Shown here: positions 16,185-36,474 of the stretch, piece after piece
Position numbering within the stretch: the stretch's first letter is position 1
Layout of the letters: each line of letters begins with the position of its first letter
NCBI GenBank assembly: GCA_030041535.1
Contig: JASHNR010000001.1
Coordinates: 38,109-102,108 of the forward strand
From: Nitrosopumilaceae archaeon
GTDB taxonomy: Archaea > Thermoproteota > Nitrososphaeria > Nitrososphaerales > Nitrosopumilaceae
DNA length: 64,000 nt
Reading direction: 5' to 3'
Position numbers and translations under genes: made by a program
Notes under the pieces: generated by a model
What the model saw: only the letters and a program-made list of their open reading frames with translations
What the model was told of the DNA's origin: nothing
The model's database searches: none

Positions 16185-16269
16185 TTTTTTCATATTATTG
16201 TACAAGTGTAAGACAAATCATGCACTAACCAAAAATTATAAATGTGATCTAGAAGATTACAGAATATGC

Positions 16270-16355
16270 GGCTATGGCATTAGCCTTGAAATAAAAAATT
16301 CTAAACCGCATCAAATGATGCTAATAATGTCTACCAAAATAAAAAATAGGTAGAC
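16270..16355 (+). promoter_or_regulatory. Fluoride riboswitch-like leader, copy A
   Basis: GGCTATGGCATTAGCC..AAACCGCATCAAATGATGCTAATAATGTCTACC..GGTAGAC, ATG 2 nt later; TATA-like TTATAAAT ~30 nt upstream. Confidence 0.9.
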
Positions 16356-16357
16356 AA

Positions 16358-16933
16358 ATGAAAACAAAAAATTCAAAAGGTTCACTTCTTACTGATGTAG
16401 GACTTGATCCTGAAACTGATTATGAATTAGGATTCTATTATGGATATATTTTTGACGGACTCGACGATGAGATCAGACACGACATAATGGAATTGATAGA
16501 CATAAACAAAGTGTTCGCAAGTGCATTTGGTCGAGGTTCTGGCTGGAAGTTTACCAAGTCATCAGTTCGTACAAAACAAATTCTAATGGAACTCTGCAAG
16601 TCTAACCACGAACTGGCAAAACAATTCTGTCAAAGCATTGGAAATCATATGGGAAAGCTTACTGATAGTACACTGAATAGTCTTTTGAACCTTGCAAAAG
16701 ATGATCCTTTCTTTGCAGCTAGACTGGGTTATGAAATTGGATACAATTTTTATAAATTGAAAGAAAATATGACGCAAATTGTATTTGATTTTGCTTCTCT
16801 AAAACTTGATTTTGCACATAAGATGGGGATTGGTGTTAAAGATACTTTTAGCAAGTTGGAAGATGATGATAGAAAACTAACATTGAATTTTGCAAAAAAG
16901 AATAAAAGTTTTGCAAGCGGTATGACAAATTAA
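16358..16933 (+). CDS. Helical-repeat protein of unknown function under leader A
   Basis: ORF immediately after leader; repeating ...FA.xxGxGxG../LAKxNxxFA pattern. Confidence 0.75.
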   Translation: MKTKNSKGSLLTDVGLDPETDYELGFYYGYIFDGLDDEIRHDIMELIDINKVFASAFGRGSGWKFTKSSVRTKQILMELCKSNHELAKQFCQSIGNHMGKLTDSTLNSLLNLAKDDPFFAARLGYEIGYNFYKLKENMTQIVFDFASLKLDFAHKMGIGVKDTFSKLEDDDRKLTLNFAKKNKSFASGMTN

Positions 16934-17320: not shown

Positions 17321-17793
17321 ATTTTTGTCCTAGCATACAAATCAAGAAATGCGTCCACATCTATTGGTTCTTCCATGATTTCAGATATTTGTTCTATCTT
17401 GGTTACTATGGAAAAACACTGTTTCTTGAAACTATCTTCGTTAAATCTCATCACAGTTATCTGTTTTGGGATGTCGACAAATTTGTTCTCCAAGTCAGTG
17501 TTTGTCAAAAGTATGAGATTCAATCCCTTTCCTTGTGCATATCCTATCCCCTGATTAATCGCACTCGAGTTTATGATCTCTGCATCGGTGATGAGAATTA
17601 GGCATATGCTAGAACGCACTATTTCTTTAAATTCTGAGGATATGAAATTACCTTGTAATTCACTATAAACTAACTGTGTCTTGAATCCTTTTTCTTCAAG
17701 TATGGATTTTAAAACACACGCATATGTCTCATAGTCTGTTTTATTGTAACCTATTGAAACTTTGAATCTTGGATGTATCATTTTATGGTTCAC
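17317..17793 (-). CDS. TIR-like nucleotide-binding domain protein
   Basis: FKVSIGYNKTDYE...CLILITDAEIINSSAINQGIGYAQGKGLNLILLT; overlaps both neighbours. Confidence 0.55.
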   Translation of the reverse strand: MNHKMIHPRFKVSIGYNKTDYETYACVLKSILEEKGFKTQLVYSELQGNFISSEFKEIVRSSICLILITDAEIINSSAINQGIGYAQGKGLNLILLTNTDLENKFVDIPKQITVMRFNEDSFKKQCFSIVTKIEQISEIMEEPIDVDAFLDLYARTKI

Positions 17794-18805
17794 TACGATC
17801 CAATTTTCTTGATCTTTGTAAAAAATGCTGAGGACCTTTATTCATTACATCTGTCAAATGATAACGCGCGACATGATGTTTGCCTTTTTTCTTTTTTATT
17901 TCTGTATGTGATGACATGGCAAGTACTTTGTAGCTATTTCGTAGGGTTACTTCGGTTACATGAGACGCTCTTGCAATATTCTTCTGAGTCATTCTAACGC
18001 CGTTTATCACGCAGGATAAGTATATAGCTGCAGCTGCTACCCCTTTTGGGGCCTTTCCTATTCTAATTCCGTCTTCTACTGCGTCATTGAGAATAAGTAT
18101 CGCATTTCGTTTGATTTTTTCACTGACCTCAATATTGCTTGCTATGTGTGCTATGTATCTTATTGGATCTGCTATTGGCATATTTAGATCGAGTTCGAAG
18201 ATAAGTAACCTGTAGCATTTAGCAAGTTCTCTTTTTTGTATTCCTGTTGCCGACGAAATATCTTTCAAAGTTCTCGGAATTCCGCCATCTCTACAAGCAG
18301 CATATACTGAAGCCCCCAGTAAGATTGCTATGGAACGTCCTTTTACAAGGCCTCTTGCAAGAGCTTTTCTATAGATGTGCGCTGATTTTTCTACTATGTT
18401 ATCGGGTAGAGTTATTTTATCTTTTATTCTAGCAAGTTCAGAAAAAGCGATTCTGAGATTTTTTTCAATCAATATTCCACTTATGTTACTTCTGTTATCT
18501 AATTTCTTTAGCTGTATCATCATTGTCTTCATAAAAGGAGATAAAGGCCTTCCAAATGCATCTCTGTACGCAGGATTGATTATTGTTGTTAATCCCTTGT
18601 CTGATCTTGCAAGTGATTGTGCCATGCCACCTGTTTGTTCCCCGTCCTTTGAAAACCCTCTCGCGTTTACCTCGTCTATTCTCTGTTCTAATACTAGGCC
18701 ACATCTGCCACAAATAACTTCTCCAAGCACGGTGTCTGTAAATATTGATTCTTTAAGGCATCTAGGACACTGATTCTGCTTTGTGTTGCTTATATTGCGT
18801 TGCAT
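17783..18805 (-). CDS. tfb: Transcription initiation factor TFB
   Basis: CPRCLKESIFTDTVLGEVICGRCGLVLEQ zinc ribbon plus cyclin repeats. Confidence 0.93.
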   Translation of the reverse strand: MQRNISNTKQNQCPRCLKESIFTDTVLGEVICGRCGLVLEQRIDEVNARGFSKDGEQTGGMAQSLARSDKGLTTIINPAYRDAFGRPLSPFMKTMMIQLKKLDNRSNISGILIEKNLRIAFSELARIKDKITLPDNIVEKSAHIYRKALARGLVKGRSIAILLGASVYAACRDGGIPRTLKDISSATGIQKRELAKCYRLLIFELDLNMPIADPIRYIAHIASNIEVSEKIKRNAILILNDAVEDGIRIGKAPKGVAAAAIYLSCVINGVRMTQKNIARASHVTEVTLRNSYKVLAMSSHTEIKKKKGKHHVARYHLTDVMNKGPQHFLQRSRKLDRSEP

Positions 18806-18807
18806 TT

Positions 18808-19209
18808 TTATCTAGCCCTCTGGCTGAATTCAGCTTTTAAAAGACGCATTATCAAAAACGCAACTTTTAACACATCACTTCTCTTTTCTATGTAAATGTA
18901 CAATATTTCCTTATCCAAAGGAAAGATCATTGTTATTATTGGGCCATAAGATATAGTGAAATCTTGTGGCCCAATATGACGATCGTGTTCTCTTCTCATC
19001 CTCACTCCTAATGCTATTTCCATTAGCAATACTTCATCTTGTAGCCCCAACCAACGCGTGTCTGTTTTGTTTTTTTTACTTTGAGCAAGTAATTTTCCCT
19101 TGTCATCAATTATTCCAACAAACACTATATTGGAATCTAAGTTAAGGACTCTATCACAAACAGATTCTAATGCATCAGTTTGTATAGTCATGTTCTGATT
19201 CCTTACCAT
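18808..19209 (-). CDS. Roadblock/LC7-like conserved thaumarchaeal protein
   Basis: ALESVCDRVLNLDSNIVFVGIIDDKGKLLAQSKK; overlaps preceding small ORF. Confidence 0.6.
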   Translation of the reverse strand: MVRNQNMTIQTDALESVCDRVLNLDSNIVFVGIIDDKGKLLAQSKKNKTDTRWLGLQDEVLLMEIALGVRMRREHDRHIGPQDFTISYGPIITMIFPLDKEILYIYIEKRSDVLKVAFLIMRLLKAEFSQRAR

Positions 19210-19339
19210 TTAATTGAGCATTAGAACGGGGGTGGAGTCGTACAATGTTAGATGACTCTGGATCTCTTTGTATGTTTGCCCAGTTTATTGTGGGAATATA
19301 TCCCTGAGTATACTCCGCATTTTTCTCTTTGTTTGTCAT
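19175..19339 (-). CDS. 54-aa small ORF directly controlled by leader B
   Basis: Hand translation MTNKEKNAEYTQGYIPTINWANIQRDPESSNIVRLHPRSNAQLNGKESEHDYTN; overlaps start of downstream gene. Confidence 0.55.
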   Translation of the reverse strand: MTNKEKNAEYTQGYIPTINWANIQRDPESSNIVRLHPRSNAQLNGKESEHDYTN

Positions 19340-19342
19340 TTT

Positions 19343-19424
19343 GTCTACCTTTTATTTTGGTAGACATTATTAGCATCATTTGATGCGGTTTAGAATTTTT
19401 TATTTCAAGGCTAATGCCATAGCC
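19343..19424 (-). promoter_or_regulatory. Fluoride riboswitch-like leader, copy B
   Basis: Reverse complement GGCTATGGCATTAGCC..AAACCGCATCAAATGATGCTAATAATGTCTACC..GGTAGACAAAATG. Confidence 0.9.
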
Positions 19425-19559
19425 TACTTAATATGCGACTATCCGCCTTTTATTCTTTTTTAAAATACTAATTGTGGACTGGTCAAGAAATTGAACATAC
19501 ATAAAAAACCGAGATATATAAAACATCTAAATCATAGAGCAGCTATTTGTATTTGAAGA

Positions 19560-19978: not shown

Positions 19979-22018
19979 TTACATGATGATAAAGAAAGTG
20001 TACAACAGAACAAAAATGAATGCTGCCATAATGTATATGAGGTAAACGAAAATCTTACCAGGCATGACTTTTCTGGCAGTGTGGTATGACAGAGATAGCG
20101 TAAATTTTGTCAGTATGTCGTAGAATTTTTTAAAGACATCTAAAACTTCTACTTCAACGATGTATTCTTCAGGTGACAAAATGACTGGCCTACGTGTAGC
20201 GCCAACTTGGATGATCCTCTCCTTCGTTCTGAATAGGAAACTTAACATTATTCTAATTGGTGTGCTGTAACCAAACGAATTATACAACTCAAATGTATCA
20301 TTTGGCTGGTTCTGGCCACTAAACCAACCATGCGTTCTCCTCACTTTCCATTTTGTGCCCCATCTTGTTATGATAAATGGTATTACAAGTAAGCCTGTCA
20401 TAAAAACAGCTACAAATGTTGGAGAAAATCCGCCAAACGGTTTTCCTGATAAAATAACAAAATATGCCGGAATTCCTAAGAGCCCAGTGACAAACGTATC
20501 AAATGTTTTTTCCTGTAAAATCTGATTCGTACTGCTTGAGGCAAGGAAAAACACCCCTGGTGCCATTACTCCTATGCCAACCACAAGAAACAAGAAATAG
20601 TAAAAACTTGTTCGTATCGATAACATTTGCTGAAAGACATTTTTGATTTTCAAATCTGTCGTTCCAGACCATAAAATACCAAATCCATATGCTTTAGTCA
20701 TTGCAATAATTATTATGCCAGCAGCCAATGCTGTTATGGCTCCAGTTATGGTTCCAATTATCTGGCTAGTAACATCTCCAAATCTGAATGATTGAAACAA
20801 TGCTTCTAGAATCATCCACTCTGATACAAATCCCGCAAGTGGGGGTACAGCTGCCAACGAGAACACTGTAATGATTCCGGACAGGTAGGAGCCTCTTCTC
20901 TCATCCTTGGAAATGGGAACTTGATTATTAAGATCAAAACTTCCCTTAACCTTGCTTATCCAACCCATGATTAAGAATAATGACGCCTTGGATATAGAAT
21001 GCGAAAATGCATGATACAGTGCAGCTACTAAGGCAAAACCCCCAAGTAATGTAAGATGATAATAAGATGATAAAAGATAGACACCAATGGCTACTATGAT
21101 CAAACCATTATTTTCTATAGTGCTGTATGCCGGTAATCCTTTATTGTGCTCTGATACCGATGCAAATAAAGCGCCCAACAGAGTCGAAATTCCTCCGATG
21201 GCAAGTGTAATCCAACCCCACCACAGTTCTGATTGACCAAGATGAGTTAAGACATTGATATATCCGTAAACGCCCATCAGAGTCAAAGTAGCTGAAAGAA
21301 TGGCTGACGCATTAGATGGTGCGTTTGAGTGAGCAATGGGTAACCATTCGCTCATATGAAATGGCGCAATGCCCATCTTTAATCCAAATCCTACTAGTGC
21401 AGCGACAAAAACCCATGAAGCGGTAATCCCACTAACATGAATTGTTGATATTGAAAGAAAGTCAAAACTCCCAAAAGATGAAAACATTCCTCCAAAGGCT
21501 AACATGATAAATACTGTACTTGCCTCTCCAAACCCTAAAAAGAGAAACGCGGCTCTTCGGATGACGTCTGGTTTGCCTTTTCCCATGAGAATCATGAAAA
21601 AAGAAGTTATGGTCATTGATTCCCATCCTACCAGAAATGAGACTGCATCTCCGGCCAAAATTATGACAACCATGGATAACATTGTAAGAACAAGCAGAGA
21701 TGCTAACCCCCTTGGATAATCGTCATATCTTAAAGAGTACAAGCATGTTCCAAGCCAGACAAGGCAGCAAATAAGCAAGAAATAGGCATTAAAAGAAGAT
21801 AATGAAAATTCAAATGTACTATGTTGCGTTACTTTCCAAAATGTCAGATCTATTGGAGTGGTGTTTGCCAAAAGCATCCAAAATGCTAAGATGATTCCAA
21901 AAGATGAGCCTATTATTCCAAGTGTGTAGCATGTTTTTTTAGAAATATATCCAATTACAGAAGCAGAAGCAAATGAAGCAAAGATTCCAATAATGGTAAC
22001 AGTCTGTATTATGTCCAT
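19979..22018 (-). CDS. NuoL/HyfB-like antiporter subunit of Ehr/complex I-like complex
   Basis: Proton_antipo_M-like: GWESMTITSFFMILMGKG...LPIAHSNAPSNASAILSATLTLMGVYG. Confidence 0.88.
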   Translation of the reverse strand: MDIIQTVTIIGIFASFASASVIGYISKKTCYTLGIIGSSFGIILAFWMLLANTTPIDLTFWKVTQHSTFEFSLSSFNAYFLLICCLVWLGTCLYSLRYDDYPRGLASLLVLTMLSMVVIILAGDAVSFLVGWESMTITSFFMILMGKGKPDVIRRAAFLFLGFGEASTVFIMLAFGGMFSSFGSFDFLSISTIHVSGITASWVFVAALVGFGLKMGIAPFHMSEWLPIAHSNAPSNASAILSATLTLMGVYGYINVLTHLGQSELWWGWITLAIGGISTLLGALFASVSEHNKGLPAYSTIENNGLIIVAIGVYLLSSYYHLTLLGGFALVAALYHAFSHSISKASLFLIMGWISKVKGSFDLNNQVPISKDERRGSYLSGIITVFSLAAVPPLAGFVSEWMILEALFQSFRFGDVTSQIIGTITGAITALAAGIIIIAMTKAYGFGILWSGTTDLKIKNVFQQMLSIRTSFYYFLFLVVGIGVMAPGVFFLASSSTNQILQEKTFDTFVTGLLGIPAYFVILSGKPFGGFSPTFVAVFMTGLLVIPFIITRWGTKWKVRRTHGWFSGQNQPNDTFELYNSFGYSTPIRIMLSFLFRTKERIIQVGATRRPVILSPEEYIVEVEVLDVFKKFYDILTKFTLSLSYHTARKVMPGKIFVYLIYIMAAFIFVLLYTFFIIM

Positions 22019-22798
22019 CTAGAGGCCACCTTTTGATCCTGGTATTCTCTCATCCTTTTCAATTTTGTTCATGCATAGAAGCAAGCCCTGTAGGATCTGA
22101 ATTGGTGAAGGCGGACACCCAGGAACTGTTACATCGACAGGTATTACTTTATCAATGGACGAGACAAAACTTTCAGTCTCCTTAAAGATTCCGCCACTTA
22201 TGGCGCATGCACCGATTGATATTACGAGCTTGGGTTCTGGCATGCTGTCGTAGGTTTGTTTTAAGACATCTACCATAGCTTTGTTAAGCGCGCCAACTAC
22301 AACAAGTACATCTGCGTGTTTTGGTGAATTTGTGAAAAAAATACCTAATCTGGTAAGATCATAATATGGATTGGAAAGATTGAGAACTTCCAAATTACAC
22401 GCATTACAAGAGCCTACATCTATCATTAAAATATGAAAGGATTTTCTAAAGATGTTTGTCTTTTTACTGAATATCCCAGCTACTTCTTTTCTTATTAGTT
22501 CATTTTGAGAAATTTTTGCCTGTAGTGATTTATGTCTATCTTCAGGGTTATCATCGAAGATAAAACCTGCATCAGAACAACGTCTGCAGTATATGCATCT
22601 TCCAAGGTCCAATGAATTAGTGTTATTTTCTATTGCATCGGTTGGACATGTTTCTTGTCCTTGAATCCAGTTTGATTCTGGTGCTGCAAAGGGTGGAACA
22701 GATCGAGCTGGAATCTCTTCTTCGGTCGGCTTTTTTTTGGGGTACTTTGTAGTCAGTATCCCATTTTTGATTCCATGTAAAATCCAGAATTTAACCAA
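22019..22798 (-). CDS. HycG/HyfI/NuoB-like small subunit with N-terminal 4Fe-4S ferredoxin domain
   Basis: CPTDAIE..CIYCRRC; DVGSCNACNLEV...SIGACAISGGIF..VPGCPPSP. Confidence 0.88.
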   Translation of the reverse strand: MVKFWILHGIKNGILTTKYPKKKPTEEEIPARSVPPFAAPESNWIQGQETCPTDAIENNTNSLDLGRCIYCRRCSDAGFIFDDNPEDRHKSLQAKISQNELIRKEVAGIFSKKTNIFRKSFHILMIDVGSCNACNLEVLNLSNPYYDLTRLGIFFTNSPKHADVLVVVGALNKAMVDVLKQTYDSMPEPKLVISIGACAISGGIFKETESFVSSIDKVIPVDVTVPGCPPSPIQILQGLLLCMNKIEKDERIPGSKGGL

Positions 22799-22810
22799 TT
22801 CTTGTACACC

Positions 22811-24154
22811 CTATCTATCCGAATCAGCATACGATAATCCGAAACTCTCGTACGCAAATTGAAAGTCAGTAAATACATTTCCTTCAAGACTCTTGGCAAA
22901 TGGTAGCCAGTTGACAAGTGAGGGAGGTCTAATATGTAAAAATTTGATATAGCCTTCTTTATCAAGTTGAACCACTTGTATGAGATCTCCACTGGGACTT
23001 TCTATTCTGCAAAATGAAAAGTTATCTTGCATGTAATTTAACCCATTGTCAGACGTTTTATCTGACATCGTCTCATCTGAGGGCATTCTGTCTAAAAGCT
23101 GTTCTAGCATGAGCATACTTGACTGAATTTCTCTGATTCGCACCATTGTTCTTGACATCGTGTCTTCCTCGTCTTCGGTCTCAATCTCAACAAAAATGTC
23201 ATTGTATGGCTCAATTGGGTATGTAATCCTGTCATCCCAATCAATTGCAGAAGCTCTTGCAGATGGGCCTACAGCTCCTAGCTTTAGTGCATCCAAGTGT
23301 GGTAATCTGGCAGTATTTTGCAGCCTGTCCAAAAATATTCTAGATGAAAGAAAGTATGTGACAAGATGAGAAAAATCACGAGTTATGTTCTTGATATCGT
23401 TTACAAGATCCTTTCTTCTGTCTTTAGTGAAGTGATTTTGGTAAACAGATCCAATTCGATTAAAGCCAAATAGATATCTGTGGCCGAAATATTTTGCATT
23501 GATCCTAAGAACTCTTTCTTTTAACACATTTGCCTCCGCGGCAGCTACGTTTTGTGTAGCCGTTTCTGATAATCGGGCAAAAACGTGTAAATGATTGTAA
23601 ATTCTTTCCAGTTCTATTGCAACTGCTCTCATCCATCTTGATCTTGAGGAAACTTGCAAGCCCAGTATGTTCTCAATGGTAGTTACAAAACAAGTGGAAT
23701 ATGAAGCAGAAAAATTCCCTGCCGACCTTTCAACTAAAAGTAAGGCATCTTCAGGTTTCATGCCTATTGCTTTATGTTCAACGCCTCTTTTCTTGAAATT
23801 AATCTGTGGAACGACTTTTACAATGCGTTCTCCATACGTTATTAGTTTAAATCCTCCAGCTTCTGTAACTCCGGCACTAACTGGACCATAGGAAAAGGAA
23901 AAAACTCCATATCCCTCAACCTTGCTACCTGTGTCTAGGTTAATTTGAGCTCCTGTTTTTTCCTCTGATTTTAGAAGAATATCTGCCTCTTCACTAAGTT
24001 TGGAAGGAACTGTGCTCAAAATTGTTCGTTTCTTCTCGATGTCTGAGAGCAACGCCAATGTTCTGCCTTCTATCTCAAATATGGCTGAGATCTGAATACT
24101 GTCGCTACTCTCTGCAACATCCTTTCGTTCTATAAAACTAGGAATCAATCCCAT
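22811..24154 (-). CDS. HycE/HyfG/NuoCD-like large subunit lacking NiFe ligands
   Basis: ERSAGNFSASYSTCFVTTIENILG at L1 position; SFGLSYADSDR at L2 position. Confidence 0.85.
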   Translation of the reverse strand: MGLIPSFIERKDVAESSDSIQISAIFEIEGRTLALLSDIEKKRTILSTVPSKLSEEADILLKSEEKTGAQINLDTGSKVEGYGVFSFSYGPVSAGVTEAGGFKLITYGERIVKVVPQINFKKRGVEHKAIGMKPEDALLLVERSAGNFSASYSTCFVTTIENILGLQVSSRSRWMRAVAIELERIYNHLHVFARLSETATQNVAAAEANVLKERVLRINAKYFGHRYLFGFNRIGSVYQNHFTKDRRKDLVNDIKNITRDFSHLVTYFLSSRIFLDRLQNTARLPHLDALKLGAVGPSARASAIDWDDRITYPIEPYNDIFVEIETEDEEDTMSRTMVRIREIQSSMLMLEQLLDRMPSDETMSDKTSDNGLNYMQDNFSFCRIESPSGDLIQVVQLDKEGYIKFLHIRPPSLVNWLPFAKSLEGNVFTDFQFAYESFGLSYADSDR

Positions 24155-24162
24155 TCCACATC

Positions 24163-25620
24163 CTATTTCATTCCTGTGACGGCATCAAGAAATACTGGTA
24201 ACATGTATATTCCAATTATCAATGATATAGTAAGATTTACAAAAGGAATTAAAACAGAAATAAAATTTTCTTTATTGGTCGGTGTTAATCTCACATCTTT
24301 ACTGATAGACAATGAAGAATTCGCTGATGCATTTGTTTCATCTTCCTTTGACTGTTGACCAAAAATCATTGAAATTGTTTGTCTATTCAAACCTATGAAC
24401 GCATACATGTAGACAATTGCCAGTATTGCAGCTAAAATAAAATTCTGTGCTATTATAGCTTGTGTGAGAATCATAAATTCGCCAAGAAAGACTCCGAAGG
24501 GAGGTGCACCAGTTACAGAAAAACAAGACAGTGTAAAAAGATAGGAGGTTGTTTTGAGTTTATTTATGACCCCTTGTGCATCTTGCATCTTTGTACTGTC
24601 ATAAGCAACAGCTATGTTTCCTGATGAATAGAAGGCGGCTGATTTTGCAAAGGCATGTGATACTATCTGAACAATGGCTCCGAGTGTACCTATTCCACCT
24701 AATGCAAATCCGACTAGAATTATTCCCATGTTCTCCATGCTGGAATAGGCCAGCATTCTCTTGTAGTTTCGCTGATATCCCATTATTATTGCAGCAATTA
24801 GAGCAGTCAAAACACCAAACCCAATTACCAAATTCTGCAAGTCAGCAAATGTCTGACTGCCTTGCAAAAGGACAAACGTCCTCATAAATGCATAAAGTGA
24901 AGTTGGTAGGAGGACTGCAGAGAACAAAGCACTAACAGGAGATGGTGCTTCACTATGTGCGTCTGGGAGCCAGGTGTGCATGGGTACTATGCCAGCTTTT
25001 GTGCCATATCCAACCAGGGCAAAGCCTACCGCCATGGACATTATCATGAAATTATTGATAGGTTGGTGCAACAATGTGCTGAACTCCAGAGTTCCTTGTG
25101 AGGTAGATACGAAGATCACAGACAAAAGGGAGATGACAAGGCCAGCTGATACAATCAAAGTGTATCTCCATGCTGCCTCTACACTGGTTTTTTTCCTTTC
25201 AAGTGCAACCAGCAAGGCGCTGGTAATGGTGGTAGCCTCTACTGCAAGCCAAACAAATCCCAAGTCATTTACAGTTATTGCAAGGAGCATAGTAAATGCA
25301 AAGAGATTGACCAAGCAATAGTACCATCGAAATCTGATGAATGGTTCTTTTATTTTTCTTATGTAAAAAACTGAGTATGATGTAGATGTCAGAAAGATTG
25401 ACGATACTGTTATTGCCATTATCCTAGTTAGACTGTCTGCATAAAAGTAGCCAAAAGTACCAGAAATTCCTAAAACTAACAAAACAAGTGATGTTACAAC
25501 AGTAACAACTGCCGCAGACAGTGAGGCAATTATCTCTACTCCTTGTTTTGGTAACAGAGAAATCAATGATCCTGTTACTGGAGCTCCAAGTAAAATGAAG
25601 AAGATGATTTCTGGCTCCAT
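24163..25620 (-). CDS. HyfF/NuoN-like antiporter subunit
   Basis: AGIVPMHTWLPDAHSEAPSPVSALFSAVLLPTSLYAF. Confidence 0.88.
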   Translation of the reverse strand: MEPEIIFFILLGAPVTGSLISLLPKQGVEIIASLSAAVVTVVTSLVLLVLGISGTFGYFYADSLTRIMAITVSSIFLTSTSYSVFYIRKIKEPFIRFRWYYCLVNLFAFTMLLAITVNDLGFVWLAVEATTITSALLVALERKKTSVEAAWRYTLIVSAGLVISLLSVIFVSTSQGTLEFSTLLHQPINNFMIMSMAVGFALVGYGTKAGIVPMHTWLPDAHSEAPSPVSALFSAVLLPTSLYAFMRTFVLLQGSQTFADLQNLVIGFGVLTALIAAIIMGYQRNYKRMLAYSSMENMGIILVGFALGGIGTLGAIVQIVSHAFAKSAAFYSSGNIAVAYDSTKMQDAQGVINKLKTTSYLFTLSCFSVTGAPPFGVFLGEFMILTQAIIAQNFILAAILAIVYMYAFIGLNRQTISMIFGQQSKEDETNASANSSLSISKDVRLTPTNKENFISVLIPFVNLTISLIIGIYMLPVFLDAVTGMK

Positions 25621-26279
25621 TACCCGCTCAACTGTTCCAAATCTGAAGGCTCTAATGTTTTAAAGACGTCTCTTTGTGCAGAAAGAATTACTCCTATTAC
25701 TACTACTCCAAAAACATCAAGTACGACAGCAAATTCTGTAAGGATCTGGATTCCAGGCGCAATTAAAGCACCAGCATATAGTATTGCATTTTCTTCTTGG
25801 ATGTAACCACACATTTGTGTGAGAGAATTTTTTCTTGTTATGATTAAAAGAAAACCAAGTAAGAGTAGAATAAAAGTAATTGCTACCTGTGGATCAGGAA
25901 AATAGGAAGCAAGGACAGATCTGAACATGGCGTACCCAATTATTATGACAATAATTCCTGATAACACAAGCGATGGGGTTTTTTGACTACTCCCAGTTTC
26001 TCTTAGTTTGTGTTTAAAACGCCGTACTTGGTATCGCATAAAGAGTGGAAAAACTACACCACGCATAACCCCTGTTATTATTGCAAGATAGAGTAGATTC
26101 AAATCTCCAGTGTGTAAGAATAAAATTACAATTAGTACTGTAATTATCAAAGACTGGATTGATATGGCTCGTATTGTTGGATCTACAAATGACTGACCCT
26201 GCATATACAAGCTTGTTAATATTGTAGAGATTCCAAGAAACCCAACAATTTCGTCATAAAATGGAATCACAAATGTCAA
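25620..26279 (-). CDS. HyfE-like membrane subunit (NuoK-related)
   Basis: Multi-TM protein, position and pattern of HyfE. Confidence 0.75.
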   Translation of the reverse strand: MTFVIPFYDEIVGFLGISTILTSLYMQGQSFVDPTIRAISIQSLIITVLIVILFLHTGDLNLLYLAIITGVMRGVVFPLFMRYQVRRFKHKLRETGSSQKTPSLVLSGIIVIIIGYAMFRSVLASYFPDPQVAITFILLLLGFLLIITRKNSLTQMCGYIQEENAILYAGALIAPGIQILTEFAVVLDVFGVVVIGVILSAQRDVFKTLEPSDLEQLSG

Positions 26280-27247
26280 TTTGTAATGCCCTTTCCAACT
26301 AGGAATAGTGATAGCACAGAAAGTAGTGCTAAACTAAAGGCGATTGCAAGAAAATCTAGAATTTTAAAAAGACGCAGCTTGGCAAATGTTTCTTCAATTA
26401 TGACCACTACGCCCACTAGTACTAGTAGCTTGAGAAATAGTGTGCCAACCGAATAGAGAGCGCCTGTAACGCTGACATCGCCTGACATCCACCACGGAAT
26501 GACAAATACATTAAGAAAGATTGACATTAGAAGAAATTGTTTCATGTAACCTCCCCATCTTGAGAGGGCAAGTAACTTGCCTGAATATTCTATTATTTTT
26601 GCATCATCTATCATGCCAAATTCTACTAGGCCGGAGCTTTCAACGGGAAGGCGTCCAGTTTCTACCAAGATGAGCATAAAAAATGCGACCATTACTAGTA
26701 CGTGTGTAGAAGAAAGATACCAAGAGGCTGAGCCTGACAAGAGATTGTTAGTTACATATGGGTTGTCTGTTCCCGTGATCATGGCAACTGCGATAAAGAT
26801 CATTATCAAAGTAGGTTCTGCTAGGGCAGTGAAAGATGCACTTCGACTAGCCCCCATTGCAGAATAGTTAGTACGCGCATCTATTGCTGCAATTATGCTG
26901 ACAATTCCTGCAAGTCCAAACATAAGGGCACCACCGAGCAAGTCCAGCAGGATGCCATACGGAAGAGGATATGGAGTCACAATTGGGACCACTAGTGATA
27001 TCACTAAATATGCTGTAAATGAAATGAAAGGTGCTATGATGAAGATTGACGATGATCTTTCTGGCACAACAACTTCTTTTTTGAGAAGTTTTGAAAGATC
27101 GTAGTAAGGTTGAAAAATTGATGGACCATGTTTTGATTCAATCATTGCCTTTAGACGATTTATGATTCCAGCTATTAGGGGAGAAAGAAACATGACGGTC
27201 CCAACTTGTATTATATTTATGATTTGGAGAGTTTGCTCATTGTTCAT
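26276..27247 (-). CDS. HyfC/HycD/NuoH-like membrane subunit
   Basis: LAGIINRLKAMIESKHGPSIFQPYYDLSKLLKKE; ETGRLPVESSGLVEFGMIDDAKIIEYSG. Confidence 0.9.
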   Translation of the reverse strand: MNNEQTLQIINIIQVGTVMFLSPLIAGIINRLKAMIESKHGPSIFQPYYDLSKLLKKEVVVPERSSSIFIIAPFISFTAYLVISLVVPIVTPYPLPYGILLDLLGGALMFGLAGIVSIIAAIDARTNYSAMGASRSASFTALAEPTLIMIFIAVAMITGTDNPYVTNNLLSGSASWYLSSTHVLVMVAFFMLILVETGRLPVESSGLVEFGMIDDAKIIEYSGKLLALSRWGGYMKQFLLMSIFLNVFVIPWWMSGDVSVTGALYSVGTLFLKLLVLVGVVVIIEETFAKLRLFKILDFLAIAFSLALLSVLSLFLVGKGITN

Positions 27248-27383
27248 TATTTTCGCCTTGCCAAGTTACCTGTAGTCGTGTGGTGCTGAAATTCTGTTGT
27301 ACATTAAGCATATGAAAAGTTATTATCGCTTTCACGTGATTGATTGATATGCTTATTTTTGTCTCTTGATTTTTGTTTATCAT
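27237..27383 (-). CDS. 48-aa small ORF directly controlled by leader C
   Basis: Hand translation MINKNQETKISISINHVKAIITFHMLNVQQNFSTTRLQVTWQGENNEQ; stop overlaps the start of the NuoH-like gene at 27247. Confidence 0.55.
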   Translation of the reverse strand: MINKNQETKISISINHVKAIITFHMLNVQQNFSTTRLQVTWQGENNEQ

Positions 27384-27386
27384 TTT

Positions 27387-27468
27387 GTCTACCTATTTTT
27401 TACATTTTGGTAGACATTATTAGCCATGTTTGGCAGTTTAGACCAAAGTCTTGGCGAATGTCATCGCC
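27387..27468 (-). promoter_or_regulatory. Fluoride riboswitch-like leader, copy C
   Basis: Reverse complement GGCGATGACATTCGCC..AAACTGCCAAACATGGCTAATAATGTCTACC..GGTAGAC; P1 compensatory change T-A to G-C. Confidence 0.92.
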
Positions 27469-27736
27469 ATATTTATCACTAATTAATAGCTACCTTAAAA
27501 GTTTCTGTCATGTCTGTCTTTTGCGCTATATGTAACTGATTCGCCTGAATTGTGTATTTTAGATAGAATGATTTTATGTATGTCTATTGACAAGAGCAGA
27601 AATTTTACAAAAGGATCATTGCAAGTTGTATACTCATTTAATACATCTGTCTTTTTCTTACACAATTTTTTCTAACCATATTCGAAAACCAGGTTTTACA
27701 AAAACATTATATGTATTAACATGCAAATAACAAACA

Positions 27737-27824
27737 GGCTATGACATTAGCCATGGATTAGAGATCCGAAACTGCTCAAAAGAGATGATAATGTCTACTC
27801 AAGAGGAAATTAAAATGAGTAGAC
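27737..27824 (+). promoter_or_regulatory. Fluoride riboswitch-like leader, copy D
   Basis: GGCTATGACATTAGCC..AAACTGCTCAAAAGAGATGATAATGTCTACTC..GAGTAGAC; most divergent copy, platform stem covaries. Confidence 0.82.
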
Positions 27825-27862
27825 AAAAAATAAAATCAAATGAAAAGAGAGGACAAGGATAG
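27815..27862 (+). CDS. 15-aa small ORF between leader D and ferredoxin
   Basis: MSRQKIKSNEKRGQG, TAG, then in-frame TTG start of ferredoxin at 27866. Confidence 0.3.
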   Translation: MSRQKIKSNEKRGQG

Positions 27863-27865
27863 ACT

Positions 27866-28357
27866 TTGGCTATTGATCCCAATTTTCCAGAAAACCACAA
27901 GCCGGTTGGAAAACATAAACATGCAGATGGAGAACATTTCCATTTTGTTTGGGGACCTGGCAGGGTTGCTGATGCTGCTGAGAATCCAAGTGTCAAAGCC
28001 GCTTATGATGCAAGACATGAGGCACTTGAACCCTTAGGAGTTCACGGCACTATGGTTGCCGTAGACTGGGATTCGTGTATTGCAGATGGGGGGTGTATTG
28101 AGGTTTGTCCAGTACAAGTGTATCAATGGTATAGGACAGAAAACGATGTTCCAGCAATCAAGATGGTAACTGTAACAAGCTCTGGTACAGGAGAAGCAAG
28201 TAAAAAAGATGGACGAAAAGACTATACTGACAAATCAGATCCAATCAGAGAACATGACTGCATTTGGTGCATGGCATGTGTTACAGTATGTCCTACAGAA
28301 TCAATTAAAGTGAGTCAGTCAAACACAGATTTTCATAAAAAGGCTGCGGGAATTTAG
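27866..28357 (+). CDS. Zinc-containing-type ferredoxin (two 4Fe-4S motifs, His-rich N-terminal extension)
   Basis: HKHADGEHFHFVWGPG; CIADGGCIEVCP; CIWCMACVTVCP. Confidence 0.88.
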   Translation: MAIDPNFPENHKPVGKHKHADGEHFHFVWGPGRVADAAENPSVKAAYDARHEALEPLGVHGTMVAVDWDSCIADGGCIEVCPVQVYQWYRTENDVPAIKMVTVTSSGTGEASKKDGRKDYTDKSDPIREHDCIWCMACVTVCPTESIKVSQSNTDFHKKAAGI

Positions 28358-28497: not shown

Positions 28498-28514
28498 AAA
28501 CTATGGGTAGACAA

Positions 28515-28661
28515 ATGAAAACAAATAATTCAAGAGGTTCGCTTCTTACTGATATAGGACTTGATCCTGAAACCGATTGTGAATTGGGATTCTATTGTGG
28601 ATATATCTTTGACAGGTTCAACGGTAATGTCAAACACGATGTAATGCATGGGAGAATCTGA
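28515..28661 (+). pseudogene. Truncated 48-codon copy of the 16358..16933 gene with residual leader platform (GGTAGACAAATG)
   Basis: MKTNNSRGSLLTDIGLDPETDCELGFYCGYIFDRFNGNVKHDVMHGRI versus MKTKNSKGSLLTDVGLDPETDYELGFYYGYIFDGLDDEIRHDIMEL. Confidence 0.75.
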
Positions 28662-30100: not shown

Positions 30101-31387
30101 TTATGAGAACAAATTGGAAGACATTTGGCTTAATTCTTCTATCTGCATTAGTCTATTGTATTTTGTAATACGTTCTCCACGGGCAGGTGCTCCTGCTTTG
30201 ATTCCGTTTGCTGCAATACCGACAGCAAAATCAGCCAACCAATCATCATTAGTTTCACCAGATCTATGACTTGCTATTACATTCCACGAATCAGAAAAAG
30301 CTACTCGAGCTGCTTCTATAGCTTCAGTCAAGGTCCCTATTTGATTTACTTTGATTATGACTCCATTTGCTGTATGCCTTCTAATTCCTTCGGTAATTCT
30401 TGAGTGGTTTGTTACAAAAATATCATCTCCTATGATGGAGGTTTTCTTGCCTAATTCTTCAGTAATCCTGATAAATGATTCAATATCATCTTCTTGAAAA
30501 GGATCTTCGATGATTTTTATGTGGTATTTGTCGACCAATCGACAGTAATAATTAAGCAACTCTTCAGAATTAACCAGTTTGTTGTCGATACTGTATTTTC
30601 CTTTAGATGAATCAAAAAAGCTAGAAGCAGCACAGTCCATACCTAACACTACATCTTTTCCAATATTGTAACCACATTTCATTATGGCATCAGAAATATG
30701 AGACAATGCCAATTCATCATGGCCAAGCACTGGTGCAAAGCCTCCTTCATCTCCGACATTAATTGCTGATTTGTTTATTTTTGTTGCTAGTATATTTCCT
30801 AATTGATGATAAATTTCTGAACCCATCCTAATTGATTCTTTTACACTTTTTCCTAGACTAACTGGTAATATCATAAATTCTTGTATTGCAAGCCCACTTC
30901 CAGAATGTTTACCACCGTTTATGATGTTCATAAAAGGAATGGGAAACGACGGAGCATGTTCTGTGCCATTGAACATTTCAGAAATATGCTGGTACAGATG
31001 AATTTTCTTTGTTCGTGCTGCTGCCTTTGCACATGCTATGGAAACTGCAGTGGTCGCATTTGCTCCAAATCTTAGTTTTTCAGAGTCACTTGCCTCGATC
31101 ATAATCTTGTCGATCTCATCTTGGTTTGTGTAATCTCTATCTCTTAGCAATGCAGATATCTTTGTGTTTACGTTATCAACTGCGCGCAAAACTCCTTTGC
31201 CAAAGAATCGTTTATTGTCGCCGTCTCTGAGTTCACGAGCTTCATTTTTTCCTGTTGATGCGCCAGAAGGAGATGATGCCACAGATCTAATGCCCGATTC
31301 GGTAATGACTTCTACTTCAATTGTTGGATTTCCTCGGGAATCAAGAATTTCTCGTGCTCGCAATAATTTGATTTTAGCTGTGGTCAC
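30101..31387 (-). CDS. eno: Enolase
   Basis: AREILDSRGNPTIEVEV; NVGDEGGFAP; KVNQIGTLTEAIEA; SHRSGET. Confidence 0.97.
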   Translation of the reverse strand: MTTAKIKLLRAREILDSRGNPTIEVEVITESGIRSVASSPSGASTGKNEARELRDGDNKRFFGKGVLRAVDNVNTKISALLRDRDYTNQDEIDKIMIEASDSEKLRFGANATTAVSIACAKAAARTKKIHLYQHISEMFNGTEHAPSFPIPFMNIINGGKHSGSGLAIQEFMILPVSLGKSVKESIRMGSEIYHQLGNILATKINKSAINVGDEGGFAPVLGHDELALSHISDAIMKCGYNIGKDVVLGMDCAASSFFDSSKGKYSIDNKLVNSEELLNYYCRLVDKYHIKIIEDPFQEDDIESFIRITEELGKKTSIIGDDIFVTNHSRITEGIRRHTANGVIIKVNQIGTLTEAIEAARVAFSDSWNVIASHRSGETNDDWLADFAVGIAANGIKAGAPARGERITKYNRLMQIEELSQMSSNLFS

Positions 31388-31853: not shown

Positions 31854-32027
31854 AATTTGTCTGTCTTTTTCAGTAGTTCTTTATACGCGTAATCGTTTGT
31901 ATTATGAATAACCTATCAATTTATTTAACTAGATAAAACAAATGCCCTGTGATTAGATCTCATCATCGCACAGCAAAATTTTTTAAAAAAGATTAAAAGT
32001 GAGTATGGCTAATGTTAATGTAGTTTA

Positions 32028-32116
32028 GGCTATGATATTAGCCTTGGAAGAAAATTCCTAAAATGCATCTCATGAGGTGCTAATAATGTCTACCAAAATG
32101 TAAAAAATAGGTAGAC
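32028..32116 (+). promoter_or_regulatory. Fluoride riboswitch-like leader, copy E
   Basis: GGCTATGATATTAGCC..AAAATGCATCTCATGAGGTGCTAATAATGTCTACC..GGTAGACAAAATG. Confidence 0.9.
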
Positions 32117-32119
32117 AAA

Positions 32120-32305
32120 ATGAAAGAACTAGAATCCATAGTAGGCTCATATAGGCAAAATTTGTTATCGTTAAATCAGAGTATCGTTTCACAAATTTTA
32201 GAGTATGATAGAAAACTTCACAGACTAATTTTTGTCCTTTATTGTGTACTCTGGCATCAGCGTTTCAAAGCAATTGTTTTATCAACTTTCAGAAGGAAAA
32301 GATAA
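32120..32305 (+). CDS. 61-aa small ORF directly controlled by leader E
   Basis: MKELESIVGSYRQNLL...; stop/start overlap TAATG with next gene. Confidence 0.55.
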   Translation: MKELESIVGSYRQNLLSLNQSIVSQILEYDRKLHRLIFVLYCVLWHQRFKAIVLSTFRRKR

Positions 32306-32562
32306 TGATAACTGCATACATTCTGCTGACCAATAATGTTGGTTCAGAATTTGAAGTAATTAAAAGAATGAAAAAAGTCTTTGGGAGACATGACCAATCC
32401 ATAGCATATGAGATACAAGGGGTAAATGGTGTTTATGATATAGTTGTAAAAATAGAATGTATCAGCATGAACGATATGAAAAATGTTATAAATGAAATTA
32501 GGAAGATCAATATGATAACCTCAACTGCAACTATGATGGTAAATGAAGAACAAGAGACATGA
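32305..32562 (+). CDS. Stand-alone Lrp/AsnC ligand-binding (RAM) domain, paralogue of 17069..17320
   Basis: GVNGVYDIVVKIECISMNDMKNVINEIRKINMITSTATMMVNEEQET. Confidence 0.8.
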   Translation: MITAYILLTNNVGSEFEVIKRMKKVFGRHDQSIAYEIQGVNGVYDIVVKIECISMNDMKNVINEIRKINMITSTATMMVNEEQET

Positions 32563-33589: not shown

Positions 33590-33718
33590 AATGGTTGATG
33601 AAGATATGCTCAAATCACTGTACTAACATGTGAACAAGAAAACTTCAGACGATATTCGGATCTCTTTTTGCCTGACTGTTAGAGTTATAAAGGCATAAAG
33701 AAGTGACAGAAATTAAAC

Positions 33719-33804
33719 GGCTATGACATTAGCCATGGAATATTCCTAAACTGCGTCAGGATTGATGCTGATAATGTCTACCTAATGGAATCTAACAGGT
33801 AGGC
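33719..33804 (+). promoter_or_regulatory. Fluoride riboswitch-like leader, copy F
   Basis: GGCTATGACATTAGCC..AAACTGCGTCAGGATTGATGCTGATAATGTCTACC..GGTAGGC; TATA-like GTTATAAAGG upstream. Confidence 0.9.
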
Positions 33805-33806
33805 AA

Positions 33807-33950
33807 ATGAACATAAAAAATCAAAATGAATCGGATGTAGACTGTCTCTTTAGTGATAATGTTAATTGTATTTTTAATGTTGTAGAAAAAATAAACATTG
33901 AATCAATTTCTACAAATACTCATCTTTCAAAAATCATGGGATTCACATGA
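33807..33950 (+). CDS. 47-aa small ORF directly controlled by leader F
   Basis: Hand translation MNIKNQNESDVDCLFSDNVNCIFNVVEKINIESISTNTHLSKIMGFT; ATGA overlap with TFB start at 33947. Confidence 0.6.
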   Translation: MNIKNQNESDVDCLFSDNVNCIFNVVEKINIESISTNTHLSKIMGFT

Positions 33951-34852
33951 CTCTAATCATAAAAAAAGAACAAGCATGTAACGTGTGTAAGAAAGGAATC
34001 ATTATATCAGATATGGAAATTGGCGAACTAGTTTGTACTAACTGTGGTTTTGTTCTTCTTGAAAAAATGGAAGATCAAAGCCCGGAACGAATAATCACTG
34101 GTGAAGGTTTTAAGACTACAAGAATTGGGTCTTCATATTCGCTTGCAAAGCATGATAACGGGCTTGCGACTGTTATTGGTAATGTAGATCGTGACGCATT
34201 TGGAAGACCGCTTTCAGCTTCTATGAAATACAAGATTGACAGGCTTAGGATGTGGGATACCAGAAGTCAAGTTCATACTACAAAAAGCAGAAATTTTCGT
34301 GCGGCTTTCAGTTTACTTGATCGATTAAGAGATTCACTAGTACTTTCATACATGGTAAACGAAAAAGCGGCACATATCTATAGAGTTGCAGTTGGAAAGG
34401 GGTTAGTTAAAGGAAGAACTATTTCTGACATGATGGCTGCATCTGTTTATGCTGCATGTAGACATACTGAAACACCACGTAGCCTAAAAGAAATTTCAAG
34501 GGGAGCTAATCGAGATAGAAAAACCGTAGCTAAATGTTACAGACTACTCCTCATAGAACTTGATCTAAACATGCCTATAGCAGATCCAATGAAATGTGTA
34601 GCAAAAATTGCAAGCAAGATAGATATGAATGAAAAAATAAAACGTAAAGCACTAGAGATCATCAGACATGCTACTGAAGTAGGTATTGCAGTGGGAAAGG
34701 ATCCAAATGGTTTTGCCGCATCTGCGTTATACCTTTCTTGTGTGATAAGCGGTGTTAGAATAACTCAGAAGAGTGTTGCACAAGCAGCTGGGGTAACCGA
34801 AGTTACTCTAAGAAACAGGTACAAAGGGCTGAAAATAATATGTTTGCAGTAA
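33947..34852 (+). CDS. tfb: Transcription initiation factor TFB (second paralogue)
   Basis: CNVCKKGIIISDMEIGELVCTNCGFVLLEK; DRDAFGRPLS; cyclin repeats. Confidence 0.93.
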   Translation: MTLIIKKEQACNVCKKGIIISDMEIGELVCTNCGFVLLEKMEDQSPERIITGEGFKTTRIGSSYSLAKHDNGLATVIGNVDRDAFGRPLSASMKYKIDRLRMWDTRSQVHTTKSRNFRAAFSLLDRLRDSLVLSYMVNEKAAHIYRVAVGKGLVKGRTISDMMAASVYAACRHTETPRSLKEISRGANRDRKTVAKCYRLLLIELDLNMPIADPMKCVAKIASKIDMNEKIKRKALEIIRHATEVGIAVGKDPNGFAASALYLSCVISGVRITQKSVAQAAGVTEVTLRNRYKGLKIICLQ

Positions 34853-35213
34853 AAAGTAGATACGCCATAACACTCAAGTTTTGAAGAATGAAATTTCTAC
34901 GACAAAGATTCACCGCATTTCAATAATTGGTAAATCTTCAATGAATGCGAAAAGATCCTTTTTCTTGGTTTTTTTCGTTGTCACAATACTGTCGTTTGCA
35001 GTAAATTTTCTAATCGTACTATCAAAGCACCAAAAACTATTTTCATCATGAAATTGGATACTATGTGGGTTCTCTCCTTGCTTCCTCCACCATAGGATCA
35101 TAATTGCCATCATAGTGACAATAATGTGGAAGAGAATATATCGTATCTGAAATTAAATGACGAGATTCGGATCGTAAAAACCTTTAAAGGTGTGGTGTAA
35201 AGATGAGACACTA

Positions 35214-35301
35214 GGCTATGACATTAGCCTTGAAATAAAAAATTCTAAACCGCATCAAATGATGCTAATAATGTCTACCAAAATGTAAAAAATAGGTAGG
35301 C
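35214..35301 (+). promoter_or_regulatory. Fluoride riboswitch-like leader, copy G
   Basis: GGCTATGACATTAGCC..AAACCGCATCAAATGATGCTAATAATGTCTACC..GGTAGGCAAAATG; TATA-like CCTTTAAAGG upstream. Confidence 0.9.
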
Positions 35302-35304
35302 AAA

Positions 35305-36474
35305 ATGATAGACAAAAAACAAAAAATATGTGAAAGCAAGACGTTGTCTTGTTCTTTGGTACTGGTTACAGTCATTATATTTGGCGTGTCTGTTGTACCT
35401 GCACATGCAGTAGAACTAAATGCGATACTTAGCTCTACATCAACTAGTGCACAACCGTCATTTGTATTTGAAAGGTCATATGTGATTGATTATCCAAACG
35501 GGGGAAATCTGGAAAATCTCCTTAGTGGAAAAAATGTCACCATGACTTATCATGTTGATCCATCTGATCCCATGAAGAAAGCATTGATAAACAGTCTTAA
35601 CCAACAAATATCTCAAGGCCTCGGTAGTGCTGCAAACATCACAGATGTTGATATTACATACGAGGCGATGCTATATCCTAGTAATTCCGAGACTCATGTA
35701 GATTATAAGATAACATTTATTCCAACTGTATCAAATTATGTGTTAAGAAAGGCCACAAGTGATAGCGCGGCAATACTTGATGTCCAGTGGATGGGACTTA
35801 CGGTAAATGGTACCATGATGGTGAATATTCCAAACTATGGTCAGTTTGATCTCAACTCGCCAATTGATTTTATAAAAATGCAATCTCCAGAACTTTACAC
35901 ACAGTTACAGGGAACTGCTGCAGGGAATCTATTTGACGATCCATTGATGGCATCAAATGATCTTCTGCTTGATCCGATATCCCAGTGGCAGCATCTGTTT
36001 GACCCAGCCTATACGCTGGTCGATACCAATATTCTTGGATACAAGGGACAAAAAATAGTCATCTCTACATATAGTACTGGCGAGAGCAACATAAGTGAAG
36101 GACGAATGCTTCCAACTGTTAAGAATGCTGATTTGAAATTAGATGTGGATTATCCAGTCAGCTACACCGAAAGAGCAAGCTTGGCCAGTATCCAAATTGA
36201 TGGTTACGTAGCTGTGACAGACATTAACGAAATAGAATATTTTGGCTCAAGCCCGCAGGCGCCTCAAGGCAGCGGTATCTCGTCAACTGGGGATTATCCA
36301 GTCCAAGTGATATATTCAATGGCAGCATTTGGTGTGGTTGTAGCAATAGGGGTGTTTTATTGGAGTAGTAGAGTAACAAAACAAGAAAAAGCAAGAGCAA
36401 ACGAAGTTGTTGGACCTAGTGGTCCTATTCAGTATGAAGAGAGAAAACACTGGGCAGATAGATTTGATCAATAA
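35305..36474 (+). CDS. Secreted/membrane-anchored protein of unknown function under leader G
   Basis: N-terminal signal-like segment (VTVIIFGVSVVPAHAVE), C-terminal TM segment. Confidence 0.75.
   Translation: MIDKKQKICESKTLSCSLVLVTVIIFGVSVVPAHAVELNAILSSTSTSAQPSFVFERSYVIDYPNGGNLENLLSGKNVTMTYHVDPSDPMKKALINSLNQQISQGLGSAANITDVDITYEAMLYPSNSETHVDYKITFIPTVSNYVLRKATSDSAAILDVQWMGLTVNGTMMVNIPNYGQFDLNSPIDFIKMQSPELYTQLQGTAAGNLFDDPLMASNDLLLDPISQWQHLFDPAYTLVDTNILGYKGQKIVISTYSTGESNISEGRMLPTVKNADLKLDVDYPVSYTERASLASIQIDGYVAVTDINEIEYFGSSPQAPQGSGISSTGDYPVQVIYSMAAFGVVVAIGVFYWSSRVTKQEKARANEVVGPSGPIQYEERKHWADRFDQ

Follow-up and report, generated by a model that had tools for sequence, protein, structure and literature searches.

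An archaeal genome of 1.83 Mb (G000, completeness 99.9%) contains, within a 64-kb stretch (hereafter the window), seven leaders that are very probably translational fluoride ON riboswitches in which a hairpin masks the start codon; copies B to F are likely to feed a reinitiation relay. A fluoride-ON translational switch is the best reading because GUC(U) is needed both for the hairpin and for the pseudoknot and linchpin of the aptamer. Without fluoride, P1, P3 and a hairpin of 7–9 bp would coexist, the hairpin being built from the aptamer 3′ end UGUC, the linchpin U and ACC, and lying against or over the AUG, so that initiation would be blocked. Upon binding of Mg-fluoride, UGUCU would be held by the pseudoknot and the linchpin, leaving about three to four weak pairs, and the AUG would open. 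In copies A and G the opened AUG would start the gene itself; in copies B to F it would start a leader ORF that ends in overlap with, or next to, the start of the target, which would let the ribosome pass on. The switching, as well as its direction, we infer from the sequences.

Fluoride aptamers and their probable promoters

Six copies in the window are matched by the Rfam covariance model RF01734 with 37.6–46.3 bits, all above the gathering cut-off of 34: A (16261–16340, + strand, 41.8 bits), B (19354–19433, −, 42.6 bits), C (27404–27477, −, 46.3 bits), D (27728–27804, +, 37.6 bits), F (33710–33787, +, 37.9 bits) and G (35205–35284, +, 40.1 bits). The seventh, E (32019–32099, +), is weak, its 31.8 bits lying below the cut-off; it carries AAAATGC where the other copies have AACCGC or AACTGC, so that a conserved element is lost and the aptamer may be weakened. 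These are all the fluoride aptamers of the genome, and they lie within 16–36 kb of the window in one fluoride-resistance island. In all seven, loop 1 (GACAUU, GGCAUU or GAUAUU) can form the pseudoknot with AAUGUC (GGCAUU/AAUGCC in G005 and G062), and the conserved CUAC end with the linchpin U is present as GUCUAC. The link to fluoride genes is given by CrcB, which lies downstream of copy G and in most instances of the family. By the features checked by computation (score, pseudoknot, linchpin, fluoride-gene link) the seven leaders are members of RF01734, and their aptamers are predicted to bind fluoride.

For comparison, the RF01734 model was run on genomes of the genus (37, of which 28 matched), the family (201) and the phylum (401), from which 62 instances were extracted for the family and 53 more for the phylum; these are related, so that the counts given below are not independent trials. 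Most relatives have one copy, and its downstream gene is either crcB or a long gene that has crcB behind it. Within the window, aptamers A, B and G are 99–100% identical, a sign of recent copying within the island. Copy A is preceded by a TATA-like box (TTATAAA, 16236–16242, +), and across the family TATA-like motifs are found at −50 to −22 of the aptamer in 48 of 62 instances against 17 expected. Because of these boxes 22–50 nt upstream, each copy probably has its own promoter, with the leader starting just 5′ of the aptamer.

A hairpin against the start codon

An earlier note had proposed that each leader ends in a hairpin abutting the AUG, and this hairpin is indeed seen in all seven copies. 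Leader A (16329–16355, +) reads GTCTACC-AAAATAAAAAATA-GGTAGAC, followed by AA and the ATG at 16358; its loop has 13 nt, its ΔG is −8.2 kcal/mol, and it is equalled by 3 of 2000 shuffles. The arms GTCTACC/GGTAGAC recur in B (19343–19365, −; loop 9, ΔG −8.6), C (27387–27415, −; loop 15, ΔG −8.1) and E (32088–32116, +; loop 15, ΔG −8.1), while G (35273–35301, +; ΔG −7.5) has GTCTACC/GGTAGGC. D (27793–27824, +; ΔG −10.2, 0 of 2000 shuffles) pairs through the variant arms GTCTACTCA/TGAGTAGAC (GUCUACU/AGUAGAC), with its AUG at 27815 partly in the 3′ arm. The arms of F (33776–33804, +; ΔG −9.9) are GTCTACCT/AGGTAGGC. As the earlier note had said, the 3′ strand lies close to the ATG in six copies, but the gap, given there as 2–4 nt, measures 2–3 nt. 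Folding adds a further U-A pair, which brings the helix to at least 8 bp, and when the downstream 50 nt were shuffled with dinucleotides preserved, the observed helix was equalled by 0–20 of 2000 shuffles, depending on the copy. In the whole genome the pattern GTCTACC-N3..30-GGTAGRC is found at six riboswitch copies only (D having the variant arm), with 0 control matches. Part of the cassette also occurs apart from an aptamer: a partial duplicate of gene A at 28505–28661 (+), a remnant of a former cassette, still carries GGTAGAC-AA-ATG and about 45 initial codons, whereas aptamer and 5′ arm are both missing.

The 5′ arm coincides with the conserved 3′ end of the aptamer, namely UGUC (the 3′ strand of the pseudoknot), the U in the linchpin place, which was assigned by its position in the CUAC element, and then ACC. 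In the literature on the B. cereus and T. petrophila fluoride riboswitches the linchpin pair is A40-U48 (PMC11077080). ViennaRNA, which cannot draw the pseudoknot, folds every one of the seven leaders with both P1 and the hairpin, and most of them also with P3, so that the hairpin competes with the pseudoknot and the linchpin rather than with P1 or P3. The isolated hairpins of the window copies, calculated without Mg or pseudoknot, have a ΔG of −7.5 to −10.2 kcal/mol, which drops to −1.9 to −4.3 when GUC is withheld by the pseudoknot and to −0.4 to −4.3 when GUCU is withheld. Two further proposals of the earlier note, that the 5′ strand is common to pseudoknot and hairpin and that aptamer fold and hairpin are mutually exclusive, are supported by the shared UGUCU and these energies, the latter also by the folds and by the covariation described next.

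The hairpin is kept in nearly all of the 62 family instances, with loops ranging from 3 to 39 nt, and its two arms change together. GUC/GAC is replaced by GCC/GGC in the arms GCCUACC/GGUGGGC (G005, G062, G528, G396 and G415) and by UUC/GAA in UUCUACC/GGUGGAA (other lineages of the phylum), and G035 has GUCUCCA/UGGAGAC. Across 21 distinct arm pairs 95% of the cells are paired, with 18 double-change cells, compared to a mean of 81% paired and 4.9 double changes for shuffled 3′ arms, of which 0 of 2000 reach either observed value; this count leans towards structure, because the 3′ arms were located by pairing. Free of this selection bias is the comparison of own with other arms, which for the better-populated classes agreed with the structure and gave 14.9 vs 9.8 for GCCTACC, 12.9 vs 9.5 for TTCTACC and 18.0 vs 10.1 for GTCTCCA, although several small arm classes do not agree with the structure in this comparison. 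Weak or imperfect hairpins occur in two or three copies of G035 (46798, 45102, 33468). The first of these (L038, C57:46798) has a degenerate hairpin with a ΔG of −1.0 before a 389-aa transporter-like gene, and is possibly decaying or constitutive.

The position of the start codon is supported from the protein side. Among the instances of this genus and of other genera there are 13 in which the AUG abutting the hairpin, at a distance of 0–6 nt, encodes residue 1 of CrcB (MKGIELLLLAAGG and similar), so that the start codon is fixed by protein homology independently of the RNA. The 16S rRNA of the genome ends in GGATCACCTCCT, to which AGGT is a 4-nt anti-SD match, and AGGT stands 6–7 nt before the AUG in all six window copies other than D, where it is a plausible weak SD. 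The SD-like AGGT that the earlier note had seen in the 3′ strand is thus present in these six copies, but does not seem to belong to the platform in general: it precedes the AUG in 30 of 62 family instances, 21 of 62 being without any SD-like motif, and in several CrcB leaders GUAGAC lies directly against the AUG. For these reasons, occlusion of the start codon is the common feature and masking of the SD at most an extra, and an AGGU-based SD mechanism is not supported as a general rule by its family frequency. GGTAGRC-ATG was likewise rejected as a general start context, since it is not enriched genome-wide (22 matches vs 42 in the control).

Other roles for the inverted repeat have been weighed against masking of the start. 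Transcription is the level at which most characterised fluoride riboswitches act (PMC2864571, PMC11077080), and the hairpin could belong to a terminator or antiterminator of the Bacillus cereus kind; yet in 58 of 62 family instances no TTTT follows within 25 nt of the hairpin, the earlier note having already argued against termination from the lack of a U-tract, and the hairpin tracks the start codon, down to the short distances seen before CrcB. A terminator was therefore rejected, and control of transcription is highly improbable. The same can be said of GTCTACC...GGTAGAC as a DNA palindrome bound by a repressor, such as the AsnC/Lrp-type regulator of the island: the inverted repeat is perfect and the island holds AsnC-like and HTH genes, but a spacing that varies from 3 to 39 nt and a repeat never found away from an aptamer led to rejection of an operator, the more so as its 5′ arm is the conserved aptamer end and changes in the arm track changes in the pseudoknot (GUC to GCC). 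A constitutive 5′ structure, which would serve RNA stability or definition of the start site without fluoride switching, would suit the copies with an altered aptamer or hairpin (E and G035 46798), but is very unlikely, since the pseudoknot and linchpin bases, needless for a stability element, are always used and the aptamer is conserved together with the hairpin. The fluoride-responsive masking of the start codon is therefore preferred for the window and its family. Some wider lineages of the phylum use other platforms. The leaders sampled from another family of the same phylum (f22) have a different arm, CCUAUCUC/GAGAUAGG-AUG, and in several lineages (L085, L091, L096 and similar) AACCGCC of the aptamer has its complement, GGCGGTT, within or close to the coding start, which suggests a different expression platform there.

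Leader ORFs and probable reinitiation

The AUG behind the hairpin had been taken as the start of the gene in every copy, which holds for A and G, but in B to F it opens a short leader ORF. Such ORFs, of 13–61 codons, are opened by the hairpin AUG in five of the seven window copies and in 24 of the 62 family instances. Leader ORF C (27237–27383, −, 48 codons) shares 11 nt with the nuoH-like gene that starts at 27247, D (27815–27862, +, 15 codons) stops 3 nt short of the TTG that opens a ferredoxin gene, E (32120–32305, +, 61 codons) overlaps the AsnC-like ATG at 32305 by 1 nt, and F (33807–33950, +, 47 codons) has an ATGA overlap with the TFB gene at 33947–34852. Leader ORF B (19175–19339, −, 54 codons) overlaps the DUF6659 ORF at 18808–19209 by 17 or 35 nt, which is a poor geometry for coupling. 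Relative to the target start, 18 of the 24 leader stops lie at −4 or −1 and 22 within −11 to +3 nt, copy B and G035 46798 being those outside. An automatic count by a fixed rule placed 20 of 24 stops within −12 to +3 against 5.2 expected from shuffles, a null that is conservative because the ATGA is already in the unshuffled tail.

In Haloferax volcanii and E. coli experiments coupling is lost by a distance of ~20 nt (PMC10666635), and termination-reinitiation coupling can be strict in archaea (PMC6728339). Together with a known landing-pad ORF, that of the M. tuberculosis ppe2 riboswitch discussed below, these distance data and the geometry of stop and target start point to termination-reinitiation. 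From the −4/−1 geometry, which is kept in unrelated peptides, it is likely that in B to F the ribosome terminates on the leader ORF and reinitiates on the target. The AUG could also be masked with the leader ORFs as mere by-products, the targets being translated de novo from their own SD and the stop positions reflecting chance or compactness. Indeed, an SD-like motif precedes 15 of the 24 target starts, so that de novo initiation is possible and coupling may be partial; furthermore, −4 overlaps are common in prokaryotic operons (PMC10666635), and the leader peptides are mostly not conserved. Nevertheless, this explanation is rather unlikely, since it leaves the excess of stops near the target start unaccounted for, and independent target starts would leave the hairpin nothing to gate. 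It is also at odds with a second island, in G035 (eight copies), where the nuoH, TFB and AsnC leaders end at −4, 0 and −4: the geometry persists in both islands though the nuoH and TFB leader peptides differ between them, those of AsnC being partly alike (38% over 63 aa). Termination-reinitiation remains the likelier reading for B to F.

Frameshifted N-termini instead of leader ORFs were considered and rejected for the CrcB, NuoH and TFB targets, which align from residue 1. The G035 orthologue of DUF6659 starts at the hairpin AUG, and in copy B the DUF6659 ORF may have a frameshifted N-terminus rather than a leader ORF. The crcB leaders of G019, G010 and G023 have an N-terminus like that of the long first gene in relatives, as though this gene had been lost and what was left of it rejoined to crcB with an overlap. 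In three further genomes (G369, G436 and G496; L115–L117) an 8-codon leader ORF, ATGTTGGGGGATGATGTAGATTGGTAG, overlaps the TTG start of a VDLYS-type protein; the hairpin is imperfect and bulged there, and a VDLYS-type protein also follows leader ORFs in G005 and G062.

The predicted island regulon and related systems

As read from their positions, the seven switches head a regulon that comprises a complex-I/hydrogenase-4-like operon, a ferredoxin, two TFBs, an AsnC-family regulator and CrcB. Gene A (16358–16933, +), a protein of 191 aa whose AUG follows the hairpin by 2 nt, has no Pfam match and is 59% identical to a protein of the G035 island. Downstream of copy B and DUF6659 lies a TFB paralogue (17783–18805, −; PF00382), and copy C precedes the operon at 19979–27247 (−), in which the nuoH-like gene comes first and which matches PF00146, PF00361 (twice), PF00346 and PF01058. 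Copies D, E and F are followed by the zinc-ferredoxin-like gene (27866–28357, +; TTG start), the AsnC-like ORF (32305–32562, +; ATG start) and the second TFB gene (+). Copy G heads a gene of 389 aa with a hydrophobic N-terminus (35305–36474, +), its AUG 3 nt after the hairpin, and the only CrcB/Fluc fluoride channel of the genome (36606–36995, +; PF02537, 84 bits), which is accompanied by DUF190. Genes for enolase, a universal stress protein and a HAD-IIB phosphatase lie between the switch-headed units without an aptamer of their own. The enolase gene (30101–31387, −) encodes a protein 32% identical to the enolase of the G035 island; enolase is a classical fluoride target. Fluoride riboswitches are known to occur with enolase, HAD phosphatases and formate hydrogenlyase (PMC11139923, PMC2864571).

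Both TFB paralogues (17783–18805 and 33947–34852) are located in riboswitch-headed transcription units, and a fluoride-triggered transcription programme acting through them is possible. A more far-reaching proposal, which we regard as tentative and would not favour at present, is that a portable cassette of promoter, aptamer, hairpin, AUG and A-rich first codons was copied before unrelated genes within fluoride islands of archaea, with leader ORFs as landing pads and a TFB/AsnC cascade downstream. If true, a gene with its own start would have received the cassette with its AUG kept, the leader ORF thus serving as a landing pad for ribosomes, and an ion sensed by RNA, with two TFBs and an AsnC-family regulator under the switches, would feed a transcriptional cascade. 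That two TFB factors and a complex of respiratory type are linked to fluoride sensing suggests an archaeal fluoride regulon reaching well past CrcB.

Archaeal crcB RNAs and formate hydrogenlyase targets are already known (PMC2864571, PMC11139923), and an archaeal translational fluoride riboswitch was reported by Speed et al. (2018, AEM 84:e02306-17), as cited in PMC11077080 and PMC8241225, so that the kind of platform, translational and archaeal, has a precedent. That system resembles the present one in its fluoride-responsive control of translation, here predicted, but belongs to a hyperthermophile and, according to the citing papers, has neither a leader ORF nor a multi-gene regulon. A paper from 2021 counted one natural archaeal riboswitch as experimentally studied (PMC8241225). 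The B12 riboswitch of M. tuberculosis ppe2 acts through the landing-pad leader ORF uPPE2 (PMC11260477), with which the window copies share a riboswitch-gated short ORF, the AUGA overlap and translation of the target by termination-reinitiation, as proposed here; ppe2, however, is bacterial, responds to B12, is an OFF switch and concerns one gene, whereas the present switches are archaeal, are predicted to respond to fluoride as ON switches and precede many genes in many lineages. Haloferax volcanii offers similar −4/−1 overlaps and distance-critical reinitiation (PMC6728339, PMC10666635), but its upstream genes are ordinary, whereas the upstream ORF of the present leaders resembles a landing pad under the control of an RNA switch. 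In the literature searched, with most subscription journals outside the search, no description of the start-abutting hairpin, the leader-ORF relay or a multi-gene island was found. With its many natural copies, this conserved and simple platform could be used to study the gating of archaeal initiation when SD pairing is weak, as well as a riboswitch-controlled landing-pad ORF that feeds reinitiation.

With the RF01734 fluoride (crcB) riboswitch itself the window copies have in common not only the aptamer score, the pseudoknot and the linchpin element but also the site in the 5′ UTR and the CrcB/fluoride genes downstream. In bacterial models the aptamer overlaps a terminator, whereas in the window a terminator-free hairpin abuts the AUG, and the seven copies in one island set the window further apart from the RF01734 models. 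A multi-riboswitch island was also observed in a distant genome of the phylum (L134, G378:C13:112000-130500), with 5 matches in 18 kb and 6 in the genome.
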